Source: Pseudodonghicola flavimaris (GTDB taxonomy: Bacteria > Pseudomonadota > Alphaproteobacteria > Rhodobacterales > Rhodobacteraceae). From it: a stretch of DNA of 64,000 bases. The notes under the pieces were generated by a model, which worked only from the letters and a program-made list of their open reading frames with translations, searched no databases and was not told the DNA's origin. The position numbers and the translations under genes were made by a program. The stretch lies in NCBI RefSeq assembly GCF_030164425.1, contig NZ_JASNJD010000001.1:310001-374000 (forward strand), read 5' to 3'. This document shows, in pieces, positions 13,119 through 18,239 of this stretch; the stretch's first letter is position 1, and every line of letters starts with the position of its first letter.

Positions 13119-13901
13119 TCAGAGGTCGAGCTCGACCCAGACCGGCACGTGATCCGAGGGTTTCTCGAAGCCGCGGATCTCCTTGTCGATCCCGCAATCG
13201 GTCATCAGGTCGGCCGCTTGCGGCGTCAGCAGGATGTGATCGATGCGGATGCCGTTGTTCCGCTGCCAGGCGCCGGCCTGATAGTCCCAGAAGGAATAGA
13301 GCCCGGCCTGCTGCGGATGGCGGCTGCGGATCGCCTCGGTGAAGCCGAGGTTGGTGATCCGCTGGAAGGCGGCGCGGCTTTCGGGGCGAAACAGCGCGTC
13401 CTCCACCCAGGCCTCGGGTTTGGCGGCATCGACCGGCTGCGGGATGATGTTGTAATCGCCCGCCATCATCGCCGGCTCCTCGCTGGCCAGGAGATCGGCG
13501 GCGCGGGCGCGCAGCCGGTCCATCCAGGCGAGCTTGTAATCGTATTTCGGCCCCGGCGCCGGGTTGCCGTTCGGCAGATAGAGACCGCAAAGCCGGATCG
13601 CCTGCCGCCCAACCACCGTCGCCTCAATCCAGCGGGCCTGTTCGTCGGTGTCATCGCCGGGCAGGCCGCGCCGGACGTCCTCCAGCGGCAGTTTCGAGAG
13701 GATCGCCACGCCGTTGAAGCTCTTCTGCCCGTGGGTCTCGACGTTATAGCCGCGCTCTTCGAACAGCTCGCGGGGGAAGGCCTCGTCGACGGATTTGATT
13801 TCCTGCAGCAGCGCCACATCCGGCTGGGCGGTGTCGAGCCAGTCGGTCAGCGCCTGGGCGCGGGCCTTGATCCCGTTGATGTTGAAGGTGGCGATTTTCA
13901 T
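13119..13901 (-). CDS. xth: Exodeoxyribonuclease III
   Basis: A 260-residue AP endonuclease/3'-5' exonuclease of base excision repair. It carries FNINGIKAR at residues 6-14 (metal Asn), LLQEIKSVDEAFP near 31-43 (catalytic Glu), CGLYLPNGNP near 104, MAGDYNIIP near 145 (Asp/Asn pair) and the terminal PSDHVPVWVEL with the catalytic Asp-His. Length and motifs match ExoIII. It converges on the monooxygenase gene (36 bp gap) and diverges from the repeat-peptide gene. Confidence 0.96.
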   Translation of the reverse strand: MKIATFNINGIKARAQALTDWLDTAQPDVALLQEIKSVDEAFPRELFEERGYNVETHGQKSFNGVAILSKLPLEDVRRGLPGDDTDEQARWIEATVVGRQAIRLCGLYLPNGNPAPGPKYDYKLAWMDRLRARAADLLASEEPAMMAGDYNIIPQPVDAAKPEAWVEDALFRPESRAAFQRITNLGFTEAIRSRHPQQAGLYSFWDYQAGAWQRNNGIRIDHILLTPQAADLMTDCGIDKEIRGFEKPSDHVPVWVELDL

Positions 13902-14227
13902 TCTGCTGCTCCTTCCGCGGTTCCACGCTCTATCGCCGATCGCGGCGGGCAGGGCAAGCGGCGGACGATTCGCCTGTCGGGTGGCATCGGATTTGGGTGA
14001 ATCTCGTAATATTTGATCAAAAATAACGTAAAATCAGAGCTGTGGAAAAGAAATTTTATCCTGTGGATTAACTTTGTCTTTCAATTGAGGCGGAGAATAT
14101 TGATGCACGTAATTGATGTGAACAACTGTGCCATGTCGCGGTATGGTGGTAAAAAATCCCTTTGTCGCAGGAGGTTCCGGTGCAAGCCTGATGTGGCTTT
14201 CAACAGTGCAATAAAGGGGGAACCGAT
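13902..14227 (+). promoter_or_regulatory. AT-rich divergent region upstream of repeat-peptide operon, with DnaA-box-like sites
   Basis: These 326 bp between xth and the repeat-peptide gene are clearly more AT-rich than their surroundings from about 13995. TGTGGAAAA at 14041-14049 is an exact reverse complement of a DnaA-box consensus (TTTTCCACA), and TGTGGATTA at 14062-14070 is one mismatch from another, 21 bp apart in the same orientation. A weak promoter-like pair TGAACA and TATGGT, 17 bp apart, lies near 14119-14147. The ribosome binding site AAAGGGGGAACC is close to the ATG. I see no coding sequence. Confidence 0.45.
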
Positions 14228-14515
14228 ATGACCGCACTGCGTAAACTGCACCTGAATGAGACTTCCGTGGAAACCGCCAGCCTGTTCGATGGCGCCGCCA
14301 CCGGGCTGTTCCCGTCGGGCTCCGCGCCGGAGATGAGCGGCGAGATGCTGAGCGGCGAGGCGGTGTCGCTGTTTCCGTCGGGCTCCGCCCCCTGCGCCGG
14401 TGGCGACATGCTCGGCGGTGAGGCGGTGTCGCTGTTCCCGTCGGGCTCGGCGCCCGAGGCCGGTGCGACCATGATCGCCGGCGAAGGCACCCGGCTGTTC
14501 CCGTCGGGCAGCTGA
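14228..14515 (+). CDS. Repeat peptide: four LFPSGS motifs in exact 21-residue register
   Basis: A 95-residue protein with a 26-residue leader-like start (MTALRKLHLNETSVETASLF, then DGAATG) and a body made of a 21-residue repeat. LFPSGS occurs at residues 27-32, 48-53, 69-74 and 90-95, so the protein ends exactly on the motif. Between motifs the pattern is AP, then a Gly/Glu/Met-rich segment (EMSGEMLSGEAVS, CAGGDMLGGEAVS, EAGATMIAGEGTR). There is one cysteine (Cys56), no signal peptide and no membrane helix. A strong AAAGGGGGAACC site precedes the start. It heads an operon with a 359-residue protein and an EamA exporter. The layout resembles precursors of ribosomal peptides with repeated cores, but modification and export are inference. 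I know no named family for it. Confidence 0.82.
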   Translation: MTALRKLHLNETSVETASLFDGAATGLFPSGSAPEMSGEMLSGEAVSLFPSGSAPCAGGDMLGGEAVSLFPSGSAPEAGATMIAGEGTRLFPSGS

Positions 14516-14529
14516 GACAGACCACCGCA

Positions 14530-14602
14530 GGCGCCCCTTCCGGGGGGCGCCGCGCCACAGGCCCGGCGACGCCGGGGCCCCGAACAGGCGGGCGATCCCG
14601 CC
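14530..14602 (+). promoter_or_regulatory. Three consecutive hairpins between repeat-peptide gene and downstream gene
   Basis: GGCGCCCC-TTCC-GGGGGGCGCC (14530-14551), GGCCCGGC-GAC-GCCGGGGCC (14560-14579, one bulge) and GGCGGG-CGAT-CCCGCC (14587-14602) occupy nearly all of the 106-bp gap. There is no T-tract, so they would more probably stabilise the upstream message or attenuate read-through than terminate fully. This would give much more peptide than downstream protein. Confidence 0.6.
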
Positions 14603-14621
14603 AGGACAGAAAGGCGAACCG

Positions 14622-15701
14622 ATGTCGAATGTGATCCAGCTCAGGGGTCCGGCCCGGTTTCAGGGCGCCGCGGCCGAGGCTGCCCTGCTCTCCGGCTTCG
14701 CCGGGGCGCGTCGCGGCGACGGGGACGTCTTCTGGCTGAAGGAGAATGCCGAGCTTCTCAACATTCTCGAAAGCACTGGCGCGCGGCCCGGCGCCGCGGC
14801 GCTGGAGCCGCTGGGGGCCTTCTATGCCACCGCCGAGGCGCGGCTGAGCTTCTTTCCGCAATACTACCGCTTCATCCTGTCGATCTGTCTCGACCTGGAG
14901 GCGCTGGGGATGGCCGGCGACAAGGCCGAGGGGCTCTGTGCCTGGGCCGCCGATCAGGGGCTGGCGGCGGCGGAATTGTCCGATCTGCAGCGGGCGGAGG
15001 CGCGGCGGCTGATGCAGCGGCGTGGGATCGATCCGCTGCCGGAGGATCGCGGGCTGGAGGACCGGCTGCGCGGCTTCATCGCCCGGACCGAGACCTTCGC
15101 CATGCCGAACCGCAAGGCCGCCTACGAGCTGACCCATATCGTCTTCTATCTCAGCGAATACGGTCGGCGCGATCCGGAACTGGCGTCGGCGGCGGTGGCC
15201 AGCCTGGACTATGCGGGGATCCTCGCGTTTCTGGATCAGGATGCCGATCTGCTGGCGGAAATCTGCATCGCGCTGCGCTTTGCCGGTGTGATCCCGTCGC
15301 CGATCTGGGAAGACTGGTTGGCGCGGGAACTGGCGGGGTTCGCCGTCGCGACGGTGCAGGAGGGGCCGGTGGCTGACGATTATCATTGCTACCTGATGTG
15401 CGGCTGGCTCGACCGGCTGCGTGGCGGCAGCGGTGTGCCGCAGCCGCTGCCGGGGGGGCGGATGGCCTTCTGGCGCGGGCCGCGGCAGGCCGGGGCGCCG
15501 CTGCGGCAGATGTCGGAATGCATGTTCCGCCTGGCGGGCGAGCGCAGCGGCGACTGGCCGGCGATGCGGCCGCATCTGCACGACGCGCTGAGCCGGCCGG
15601 CACAGGATATCCTGGCCGAGGCCGAGGCCAGCAGCCCACGCTTTGCGGAGTTCTTCCGCGGCTTCGCCCGGCCGGCTCTGATCACCGGGGTGGCATCATG
15701 A
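14622..15701 (+). CDS. Uncharacterised 359-residue protein of repeat-peptide operon
   Basis: A soluble, mainly helical 359-residue protein without signal peptide or membrane segment. The most distinctive stretches are YELTHIVFYLSEYGRRDPEL (residues 168-187, His172) and DDYHCYLMCGWLDRL (252-266, His255, Cys256, Cys260); the two His-containing helices look like repeats of an alpha-helical toroid. The first recalls, from memory only, helical proteins labelled DUF6895 in actinobacterial natural-product clusters. I see no Rossmann, radical-SAM, YcaO, kinase or protease motif. It starts 106 bp after the repeat-peptide gene, and its stop overlaps the ATG of the exporter gene (ATGA). It could bind or modify the repeat peptide; this is inference. 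Confidence 0.75.
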   Translation: MSNVIQLRGPARFQGAAAEAALLSGFAGARRGDGDVFWLKENAELLNILESTGARPGAAALEPLGAFYATAEARLSFFPQYYRFILSICLDLEALGMAGDKAEGLCAWAADQGLAAAELSDLQRAEARRLMQRRGIDPLPEDRGLEDRLRGFIARTETFAMPNRKAAYELTHIVFYLSEYGRRDPELASAAVASLDYAGILAFLDQDADLLAEICIALRFAGVIPSPIWEDWLARELAGFAVATVQEGPVADDYHCYLMCGWLDRLRGGSGVPQPLPGGRMAFWRGPRQAGAPLRQMSECMFRLAGERSGDWPAMRPHLHDALSRPAQDILAEAEASSPRFAEFFRGFARPALITGVAS

Positions 15702-16600
15702 GCGCGGCGCGCCGGGCGGCGCTGGCCGGGGCCGGGCTGACGGCGCTCTATACCGGGCTGATCGCCGGCGCCGACGGCATCACCAAGCTTGTCGCGGGCG
15801 GCTATGCGGCGCCGCAGATGTTCGCGATCTCCGGTGCGCTGGTGATCGCGCTCAGTGTTCTGGCCGACCGGCACCCGTCGCAGGGCAAGGGGCTCAGGAC
15901 CCGCCGGCCGGGGGCGATGGCGCTCAGATCGGCGGCGACGGTGGTGGCGGCGGTGGCCTTCTTTCAGGCCTTCCGGCTGCTGCCCTTCACCGATGTCTTC
16001 CTGTTCATCGCGCTGATGCCGATCCTGGCGGCGCTGATGTCCGGGCCGATCCTGGGCGAATATGTGCGGCCGGCGGCCTGGGTGGCGCTGGCGGCCGGGG
16101 TGGCGGGGGTGGTCTGCCTGTTTCCGGAGGGGCTGCATGGCGTCGGTTCCGGCCATCTCTGGGCCGGGCTGGCGGCGGTCAGCGGCACGTTCTCCATGCT
16201 GATGGCCCGGTTGATCGGGCGGACGGAGCAGAATGCGCTGGCCCAGGTCTTCTATCCCAACCTGGCGCTCTGTCTGACGATGAGTGCGGCACTGCCGTTC
16301 GTCTGGCGGCCGATGTCGCTGGCCGATCTGGGCTGGATCGCCGCCTATGCCGGGCTGCTCTTCGCCGCGCGCTGGGTGTCGGTGGTGGCGCTGCGACTGC
16401 TCGCGGCCTATGCGGTGACGCCGCTGATGAACCTGCAGTTCATCTGGATGGTGGCAATCGGCGCGCTGGCCTTCGGAGAGTTGCCGACGCTCAGCACCGT
16501 GCTGGGGGCGGTGATCGTGGTGGGCAGCGGGCTCTATCTGGTGTGGGACCAGATCGCGCCGCAGGAGCGGCTGTCGCCGGACCTGAGAACCGATCCGTAA
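15698..16600 (+). CDS. EamA/DMT superfamily transporter of repeat-peptide operon
   Basis: A 300-residue membrane protein with about ten hydrophobic helices in two five-helix halves, the EamA arrangement; the second half begins near residue 150 (GHLWAGLAAVSGTFSMLMARLIG). EamA proteins of this size export small metabolites, amino acids or drugs. The ATG overlaps the stop of the 359-residue protein gene, so the two are translationally coupled, which ties the transporter to the repeat-peptide locus. The substrate is unknown. A bidirectional terminator follows. Confidence 0.88.
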   Translation: MSAARRAALAGAGLTALYTGLIAGADGITKLVAGGYAAPQMFAISGALVIALSVLADRHPSQGKGLRTRRPGAMALRSAATVVAAVAFFQAFRLLPFTDVFLFIALMPILAALMSGPILGEYVRPAAWVALAAGVAGVVCLFPEGLHGVGSGHLWAGLAAVSGTFSMLMARLIGRTEQNALAQVFYPNLALCLTMSAALPFVWRPMSLADLGWIAAYAGLLFAARWVSVVALRLLAAYAVTPLMNLQFIWMVAIGALAFGELPTLSTVLGAVIVVGSGLYLVWDQIAPQERLSPDLRTDP

Positions 16601-16625
16601 AAGGCCGTAACGGGCCGTCGGGAAA

Positions 16626-16655
16626 AGAAAAACGCCCCAAGACAGGGGCGTTTCG
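16626..16655 (-). terminator. Bidirectional terminator between EamA gene and erpA
   Basis: AAACGCCCC (16630-16638) pairs with GGGGCGTTT (16645-16653) around AAGACA. Read on the minus strand the stem runs into a T-rich tail (TTTTTCTTTTCC), so it mainly serves erpA; on the plus strand the tail is only TTTC. Confidence 0.88.
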
Positions 16656-16693
16656 GGGCCATCTGCGCCATTTTCGGCCGCCAATGCGCCCGC

Positions 16694-17017
16694 TTACATC
16701 GAAAACGACGTGCCGCAGCCGCAGGAGGAGGTGGCGTTCGGATTGTCGATGACGAAACGGGCGCCGATCAGCTCCTCGGTGAAATCGATGGTGGCATTGG
16801 CCAGAAACGGCAGCGACACGGAGTCGACGACCACCTTTTCGCCCTGGCCTTCGAGGATCAGATCGTCCTCGGCCGGGGCGTCCAGCGCGATATCGTACTG
16901 AAACCCGGAGCAGCCGCCGCCCTCGACCGCCACGCGCAGCGCCTTGCCCTGTTGGGCGGCACCGATCTCTGACAGGCGGGCAAAGGCACGCTCGGTCACT
17001 TTCGGGGGCAGGTTCAT
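16694..17017 (-). CDS. erpA: Iron-sulfur cluster insertion protein ErpA (HesB/IscA family)
   Basis: A 107-residue A-type carrier that passes Fe-S clusters to apoproteins. The three family cysteines are present: GGGCSGFQY near residue 36 and SSCGCGTSF near 99-101. Length and the C-terminal CGCG motif fit ErpA better than the scaffold IscU. In Rhodobacteraceae this gene commonly lies divergently beside dgt, as here. It could equally be labelled IscA; the biochemical role is the same class. Confidence 0.93.
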   Translation of the reverse strand: MNLPPKVTERAFARLSEIGAAQQGKALRVAVEGGGCSGFQYDIALDAPAEDDLILEGQGEKVVVDSVSLPFLANATIDFTEELIGARFVIDNPNATSSCGCGTSFSM

Positions 17018-17033
17018 GGATCACTCCGGCGGT

Positions 17034-17061
17034 TTGAATTCCCTTTGCAGTCCAATATAGA
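17034..17061 (+). promoter_or_regulatory. Sigma-70-like promoter for dgt
   Basis: TTGAAT at 17034-17039 and TATAGA at 17056-17061 are separated by 16 bp, and dgt starts 36 bp downstream. Both boxes are close to consensus. Confidence 0.6.
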
Positions 17062-17096
17062 GGGCTCAAGGACAGGGACAAGAACAAGGACCGCAG

Positions 17097-18239
17097 ATGC
17101 GCGCCCCCTATGCCTCGGATCCCGGAAAAAGCCGCGGGCGGCTGGTTCGGGAAGAGGAAAGCAGTTTTCGCTCGCCGTTTCAGCGCGACCGGGACCGGAT
17201 CATCCATGCCAGCGCCTTCCGCCGGCTGAAACATAAAACCCAGGTCTTCGTCGAACACGAAGGCGACAATTACCGCACCCGGCTGACCCATTCGATCGAG
17301 GTGGGGCAGGTGGCCCGCACCGTGGCCGGCGCCCTCGGCCTGAACCAGGAGCTGACCGAGGCGGTGGCGCTGGCCCACGATCTGGGGCACACCCCCTTCG
17401 GCCACACCGGAGAGGATGCGCTGCACGCGCTGATGGCGCCCTATGGCGGGTTCGATCATAACGCCCAGGCGATCCGCATCGTCACCAGCCTGGAACGCCA
17501 TTACGCCGAATTCGACGGGCTGAACCTGACCTGGGAGACGCTGGAGGCGATCGCCAAGCATAACGGCCCGGTGACCGGAGAGCTGCCCTGGGCGCTGGCC
17601 GAATGCAACGCCGCCATCGATCTGGAGCTGCACACCCATGCCAGCGCCGAGGCGCAGGTGGCGGCGCTGGCCGACGATATCGCCTATAACAACCACGACC
17701 TGCACGACGGGCTGCGCGCCGGGTTGTTCACCGATGAAGAGATCACGGCGCTGCCGATCATCGGCGATGCCTATGCCGAGGTCGACGCCAGATACCCCGG
17801 TCTCGACTGGAACCGGCGTCGGCACGAGGCGCTGCGCCGGGTGTTCGGGGTGATGGTCTCCGATGTCATCGACACCTCTCGCGCGCGGCTGACAGAGAGC
17901 GGTGCCGGCTCGGTCGAGGAGATCCGCGCGCTCGGCCGGCCGGTGGTGCAATTCTCCCCAGAACTCTGGACCGATCTGAAGCAGATCCGCGACTTCCTGT
18001 TCCGCCGGATGTATCGCGCGCCCAGCGTGATGGTGATCCGCAAACAGGTCGCCGTGGTGGTGGAGGAGCTGTTCGATCTGTTTCTGCGCGACCCCGGGCT
18101 GTTGCCGGAGCGCTGGCTGCACGATCTGGCCCGGGCCGAAGGGGATGAGACCGCGGTGGCCCGGATCATCTCGGATTACATCGCCGGGATGACCGACCGG
18201 TTCGCGCTGCACGAACACGAACGGCTGATGAAACCCTGA
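17097..18239 (+). CDS. dgt: Deoxyguanosinetriphosphate triphosphohydrolase-like protein
   Basis: A 380-residue HD-superfamily dNTP triphosphohydrolase that splits dNTP into deoxynucleoside and triphosphate. HD metal residues are visible in TRLTHSIEVGQVAR near residue 60, ALAHDLGHTPFGHTGEDAL near 90-108, and DDIAYNNHDLHDGLRAG near 193-209. The N-terminal region RDRDRIIHASAFRRLKHKTQVF is typical of the shorter type-2 dGTPase-like enzymes. It is followed 17 bp later by the antiporter gene. Confidence 0.95.
   Translation: MRAPYASDPGKSRGRLVREEESSFRSPFQRDRDRIIHASAFRRLKHKTQVFVEHEGDNYRTRLTHSIEVGQVARTVAGALGLNQELTEAVALAHDLGHTPFGHTGEDALHALMAPYGGFDHNAQAIRIVTSLERHYAEFDGLNLTWETLEAIAKHNGPVTGELPWALAECNAAIDLELHTHASAEAQVAALADDIAYNNHDLHDGLRAGLFTDEEITALPIIGDAYAEVDARYPGLDWNRRRHEALRRVFGVMVSDVIDTSRARLTESGAGSVEEIRALGRPVVQFSPELWTDLKQIRDFLFRRMYRAPSVMVIRKQVAVVVEELFDLFLRDPGLLPERWLHDLARAEGDETAVARIISDYIAGMTDRFALHEHERLMKP

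Follow-up and report, generated by a model that had tools for sequence, protein, structure and literature searches.

The window analysed here (the whole stretch of 64,000 nucleotides of Pseudodonghicola flavimaris DNA) carries a three-gene locus which, judging from sequence comparisons, probably encodes a multi-core pathway of the RiPP type, with a protein of the DUF6902 family as the putative core-modifying enzyme and epimerisation as its most likely reaction. The locus has the typical RiPP anatomy: a ribosomal precursor with a leader and core is encoded beside a putative modifying gene (Table 1). The presence in many marine roseobacters of a species-variable, tandem-core peptide gene together with DUF6902 at one site suggests a family of modified peptides that has yet to be described, given that the sister family of DUF6902 is named as an epimerase in the title of a recent paper (see below). 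The cassette is common and belongs to the chromosome of well-known marine bacteria, Ruegeria, Phaeobacter and Roseovarius among them. No description of the roseobacter cassette was found in the literature searched, and none of DUF6902 in a search that covered few subscription journals.

Table 1. Features of the precursor-DUF6902-EamA locus and its flanks (positions in the window).
Feature	Position	Strand	Basis or remark
Pair of imperfect DnaA-box-like sites (+ strand: TGTGGAAAA, TGTGGATTA), AT-rich region ahead of the precursor gene	14041..14070	-	putative role
GTGCAAGC element, ~48 bp upstream of the start codon of the precursor gene	14180..14187	+	
Precursor gene, leader plus four tandem cores, 95 aa	14228..14515	+	ORF, repeat register, relatives
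Leader-like segment MTALRKLHLNETSVETASLFDGAATG, 26 aa	14228..14305	+	start common to most relatives
Core copy 1, LFPSGS, residues 27-32	14306..14323	+	
Core copy 2, LFPSGS, residues 48-53	14369..14386	+	
Core copy 3, LFPSGS, residues 69-74	14432..14449	+	
Core copy 4, LFPSGS, residues 90-95, protein C-terminus	14495..14512	+	
GC-rich hairpin in the precursor/enzyme gap	14530..14551	+	weak significance
DUF6902 protein, 359 aa, putative core-modifying, epimerase-like enzyme	14622..15701	+	Pfam, conserved residues
His172	15135..15137	+	invariant in DUF6902 and DUF6895
Asp209 and Glu213	15246..15260	+	invariant in DUF6902 and DUF6895
Tyr254-His255	15381..15386	+	invariant in DUF6902 and DUF6895
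EamA/DMT transporter, dedicated but dispensable partner	15698..16600	+	Pfam, neighbourhood comparison
Hairpin resembling a terminator, flanked by EamA and the convergent erpA-like gene	16629..16654	-	

Organization and chromosomal site of the cassette

An earlier, sequence-only reading of this DNA had placed LFPSGS at residues 27, 48, 69 and 90 of a 95-aa open reading frame (ORF), in exact 21-residue register and with the fourth copy forming the C-terminus; it had also described a gap of 106 bp to a 359-aa ORF, and an EamA start overlapping the stop of the latter as ATGA. All of these observations were confirmed. The EamA gene product matched Pfam family PF00892 (1.5e-11; 45.2 bits against a cut-off of 28.2).

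In most relatives the cassette was located between xth and erpA/dgt (positions 13119-18239 of the window). In 15 of the 18 DUF6902-negative genomes that were checked, xth and erpA lay within approximately 1.4 kb of each other, in several cases within 100 bp, with no DUF6902 gene between them. Since xth and erpA adjoin without DUF6902 in these genomes, one fixed site either carries the cassette or lacks it, and gain and loss at this position involve the whole unit. No match to DUF6902 was found on plasmids or viral contigs.

EamA was found downstream of DUF6902 in most loci. Its orthologs (at least 48% identity) were detected in 41 of the sampled genomes, all of them DUF6902-positive and with the gene adjoining DUF6902, while the weaker matches (35-38%) present in four DUF6902-negative genomes look like paralogs. 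The gene is missing from many loci, including most of those of Marivita, where erpA comes directly after DUF6902. The exporter earlier proposed to accompany the peptide genes is thus a dedicated partner (orthologs occur only beside DUF6902), but not a constant one.

Co-occurrence of the precursor and DUF6902 genes

DUF6902 was detected in 57 of the 199 sampled genomes of the family, and 385 relatives were present in the genome collection. The set of loci compared comprised larger stretches of the sampled genomes plus 80 named loci (from Ruegeria, Phaeobacter, Shimia, Roseovarius, Marivita and other Rhodobacteraceae). A repeat-bearing ORF was situated directly upstream of DUF6902 (median gap 63 bp) in 118 of the 119 distinct loci, among which the repeat gene of one (L067) consists partly of N and some others run off the contig.

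When a precursor profile was applied to the sampled genomes, it matched 53 of them, all inside the group of 57 DUF6902-positive genomes, and none of the 142 negatives. The four positives missed by the profile were L074, L084 and two with only marginal matches to DUF6902; a precursor of L074, carrying two copies of MMCCS, was seen by eye. The two genes, placed in one peptide system by the sequence-only reading, are therefore paired almost perfectly in both directions.

The DUF6902 protein and its sister family DUF6895

Although previously described as unassigned, the 359-aa protein belongs to a named family: it matched DUF6902 (PF21843; 1.8e-153, 511 bits against a gathering cut-off of 27) over residues 1-350 and, in addition, gave a clear match to DUF6895 (PF21836; 5.6e-24, 85.4 bits against a cut-off of 23.8). 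Comparison of the two families with hhalign gave a probability of 96.6. No unrelated established role of the protein came to light: DUF6902 is an unstudied DUF, while its sister family DUF6895 is reported, by the title of a paper, to include an epimerase that modifies lasso peptides (Shi et al., ACS Catal 2026, doi 10.1021/acscatal.5c08590, cited in PMC13352647). Epimerisation, as given in this title, is the only function found for the DUF6902/DUF6895 superfamily.

His172, Asp209, Glu213, Tyr254 and His255 are among the residues invariant in 53 precursor-bearing DUF6902 proteins, and eight DUF6895 proteins retain their counterparts (His208, Asp250, Glu254 and Tyr312-His313 in the hhalign alignment). 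Both His-containing motifs singled out from the sequence, ELTH and YHCYLMCGW, include superfamily-invariant residues. At L084, the sole locus without a precursor and a single natural case, the counterparts of His172, Asp209, Glu213, Tyr254 and His255 have all been lost from a divergent DUF6902 protein in which 23 of the 46 residues invariant in the others are still present; to judge from its sequence, this protein is possibly a pseudoenzyme.

The AlphaFold model of the DUF6902 protein was confident and almost all-helical (pLDDT 93.8), and neither a fold search with the model nor a profile search gave a significant PDB match. A precedent for the proposed chemistry is provided by MslH, the epimerase of lasso peptide MS-271, which uses two His/Asp pairs (PMC10406935), and for this reason the two-His, two-acid set of DUF6902 is chemically reasonable for epimerisation. 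However, the fold of MslH is calcineurin-like, with Ca(II), in contrast to the helical DUF6902 model.

The same two His and two acidic residues could also bind metal, and a RiPP-type pathway with some other DUF6902 chemistry (e.g. metal-dependent oxidation, cyclisation or cleavage, in which the metal would be held by the conserved His, Asp and Glu) is a distinctly less probable reading that has to be considered. Ser, Thr and, in some cases, Cys abound in the cores and offer possible sites for other modifications, the link between DUF6895 and epimerisation is known only from a paper title, and DUF6902 may have retained the binding function while its reaction changed. This reading is weakened by the epimerase function named in that title, the sole one found for the superfamily, and by the lack of hits of the DUF6902 protein to known oxidase, cyclase or protease families in Pfam, NCBIfam and PDB sequence searches.

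In the DUF6895 loci examined, small ORFs were found upstream of the DUF6895 genes in Alpha-, Beta- and Gammaproteobacteria, Streptomycetaceae, Pseudalkalibacillus (Bacillota) and Gemmatirosa, which represent four phyla; in three of these loci (L110, L202, L203) at least one other ORF separates the small ORF from the DUF6895 gene. Two-fold repeats were observed in the small ORFs of L099 and L100, and a core-like motif, GPW[FY], recurs in L098, L099 and L201.

The locus in the window thus resembles that of the DUF6895 lasso-peptide epimerase, as far as the latter is known from the title, in having a homologous domain with the same invariant His, Asp, Glu and Tyr-His residues, encoded behind a small ORF as in the DUF6895 loci examined. 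It differs in that the window protein is a member of the sister family, and its precursors are multi-core, with pentapeptide cores, and not lasso precursors. Moreover, no lasso protease/cyclase genes (leader peptidase, macrolactam synthetase) were seen in the cassette of the window and its relatives, where the neighbouring genes are xth, EamA and erpA.

It is worth mentioning that the DUF6895-linked small ORFs of L098, L099, L100, L107-L110 and L201-L204 matched no Pfam family among those tested, and that several of them have a helical leader in common, as well as an aromatic core (e.g. GPW[FY]).

Structure and evolution of the precursor

Most of the related precursors share a common start, M[TSN]A[LQ]xK, and have a median of 30 residues ahead of the first core F; in 94 of 118 relatives the protein ends exactly with the core. 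Among the loci compared, the number of core copies per precursor had a median of 7 and reached 20, and the 846 repeat units follow the pattern G-[DE]-[AG]-[VT]-x-[MLA]-F-x-[ST]-[GSWAC]-[SLAMC].

All cores were identical in 88 of 117 genes. Overall, 36 distinct cores were recorded, and their distribution on the DUF6902 tree requires no fewer than 52 changes. Identity at core positions 2-5 was 0.94 within a gene versus 0.48 between genes (both figures are raised by the motif pattern, which limits the visible letters), and that of the six residues before F was 0.63 and 0.45, respectively. The pN/pS ratio, calculated for 20 pairs, was 0.03 for the core (a value partly conditioned, since the pairs were mostly picked for a shared core), 0.09 for the six preceding residues and 0.40 for the rest of the protein. 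The repeat motif is thus under strong purifying selection, with synonymous changes greatly exceeding non-synonymous ones, and the repeat noticed in the single sequence proved to be conserved at the protein level. Cores that are uniform within a gene and swapped between genes form the pattern that would be expected from selection on a released, repeated product.

Such concerted replacement bears on a further, rather improbable reading, in which the uncut repeat protein is itself functional, for adhesion, as a scaffold or in metal handling, and is chaperoned or bound by DUF6902. Tandem repeats are indeed common among structural proteins, the cassette encodes no protease or classical peptide exporter, and EamA is missing in some genomes. 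However, the homogeneity of the cores within a gene and their wholesale replacement between species better fit a released product, metal-binding residues are absent from many cores, and no signal peptide was recognised by eye on the repeat protein. In addition, the small peptides encoded beside the DUF6895 relatives are unrelated and have few repeats or none.

Some precursors depart from the general scheme. In three Ruegeria precursors (L044, L141, L149), which are an exception to the within-gene uniformity, FSSGS occupies the first and last positions, with FSTSC cores in between. Long units alternate with a short direct core repeat (e.g. FTSGLVQMFTSGL) in some precursors, namely L124, L133, L161 and others of the FTSGL or FTSGS type. 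An AlphaFold model of the precursor, built from a single sequence, was uninformative (pLDDT 52).

Proposed pathway and comparison with known systems

The new peptide pathway suggested by the sequence-only reading is supported by the pairing of the two genes, the conservation of the repeat and the sister family reported by title as an epimerase, while its chemistry, as well as the action of DUF6902 on the precursor, the target residue, cleavage and export, is what we infer. In the preferred RiPP-type pathway, the 95-aa protein would be a ribosomal precursor in which a leader of approximately 26 residues is followed by four F-P-S-G-S cores, each preceded by a conserved recognition-like segment, G-[DE]-[AG]-[VT]-x-[ML], with degenerate linkers between them. 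The DUF6902 protein would bind the recognition segment and modify one core after another, the most likely reaction being two-base epimerisation at an alpha-carbon (L to D), in which His172 and His255 would act with Asp209 and Glu213. The short cores would then be cut out by host proteases and, where the EamA protein is present, they may be exported by it. Epimerisation is mass-neutral, and therefore epimerised cores would be missed by ordinary mass spectrometry.

YddG and the metallophore exporter CntI are EamA/DMT exporters. The window transporter is a member of the same superfamily, but it is specific to the cassette and missing from many loci. EamA proteins usually carry small metabolites, which counts against the export of cores.

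Cyanobactin and microviridin precursors consist of a leader, repeated recognition segments and several cores within one precursor, an arrangement that is shared by the precursor in the window. In contrast to these systems, the roseobacter cores are far more numerous (median 7, up to 20) and show near-complete homogenisation within a gene, the enzyme belongs to a different family, and neither a protease or cyclase nor a RiPP recognition domain was recognised among the cassette proteins.

If this pathway is correct, it adds a multi-core peptide family and the first role for DUF6902, and extends the peptide-epimerase family, as reported by title, across several bacterial phyla. Because the cores are species-variable yet near-uniform per gene, questions of species-specific peptide signalling can be addressed directly in laboratory roseobacters. 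A more ambitious and rather doubtful extension is that the locus may represent a new class of tandem-encoded D-amino-acid pentapeptides, species-specific, placed at a fixed locus in a large part of the roseobacters, and exported as signals or bioactive compounds.

Upstream elements and RNA features

The sequence TGTGGATAA, which is DnaA-box-like (the reverse complement of the DnaA box), occurred in its exact form upstream of the precursor gene in 66 of 112 loci. Within the 250 bp upstream of the precursors in relatives, it clusters near -190 and -110, mostly on the + strand; the window carries two imperfect copies. The box was absent from 15 empty sites. An origin of replication at the DnaA-box-like sites was rejected, as the GC skew shows no switch there and the boxes are absent from the empty sites. 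CtrA-like sites, which were more frequent than in shuffled sequences, yet present in few loci, were also discarded.

Conserved promoter elements, together with a minimal unit of two genes with the small ORF upstream, would also suit a regulatory or toxin-antitoxin-like module in which the repeat peptide is sequestered by DUF6902, but this is very improbable, considering that Pfam gave no match to a toxin or antitoxin family, the invariant His, Asp and Glu and the homology to a family reported (by title) as an epimerase favour catalysis, and the cassette occupies a single fixed site, with no match on plasmids or viral contigs.

No RNA was matched in a search of Rfam, and the comparison of relatives gave no support for a conserved attenuator hairpin between the precursor and DUF6902 genes (mean z -0.5 with mononucleotide shuffles). 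The intergenic hairpins are inconsistently strong across relatives, and the significance of that in the window is therefore weak. Closer to the precursor gene, the exact 8-mer GTGCAAGC was found at about -50 in 35 of the 112 relatives.
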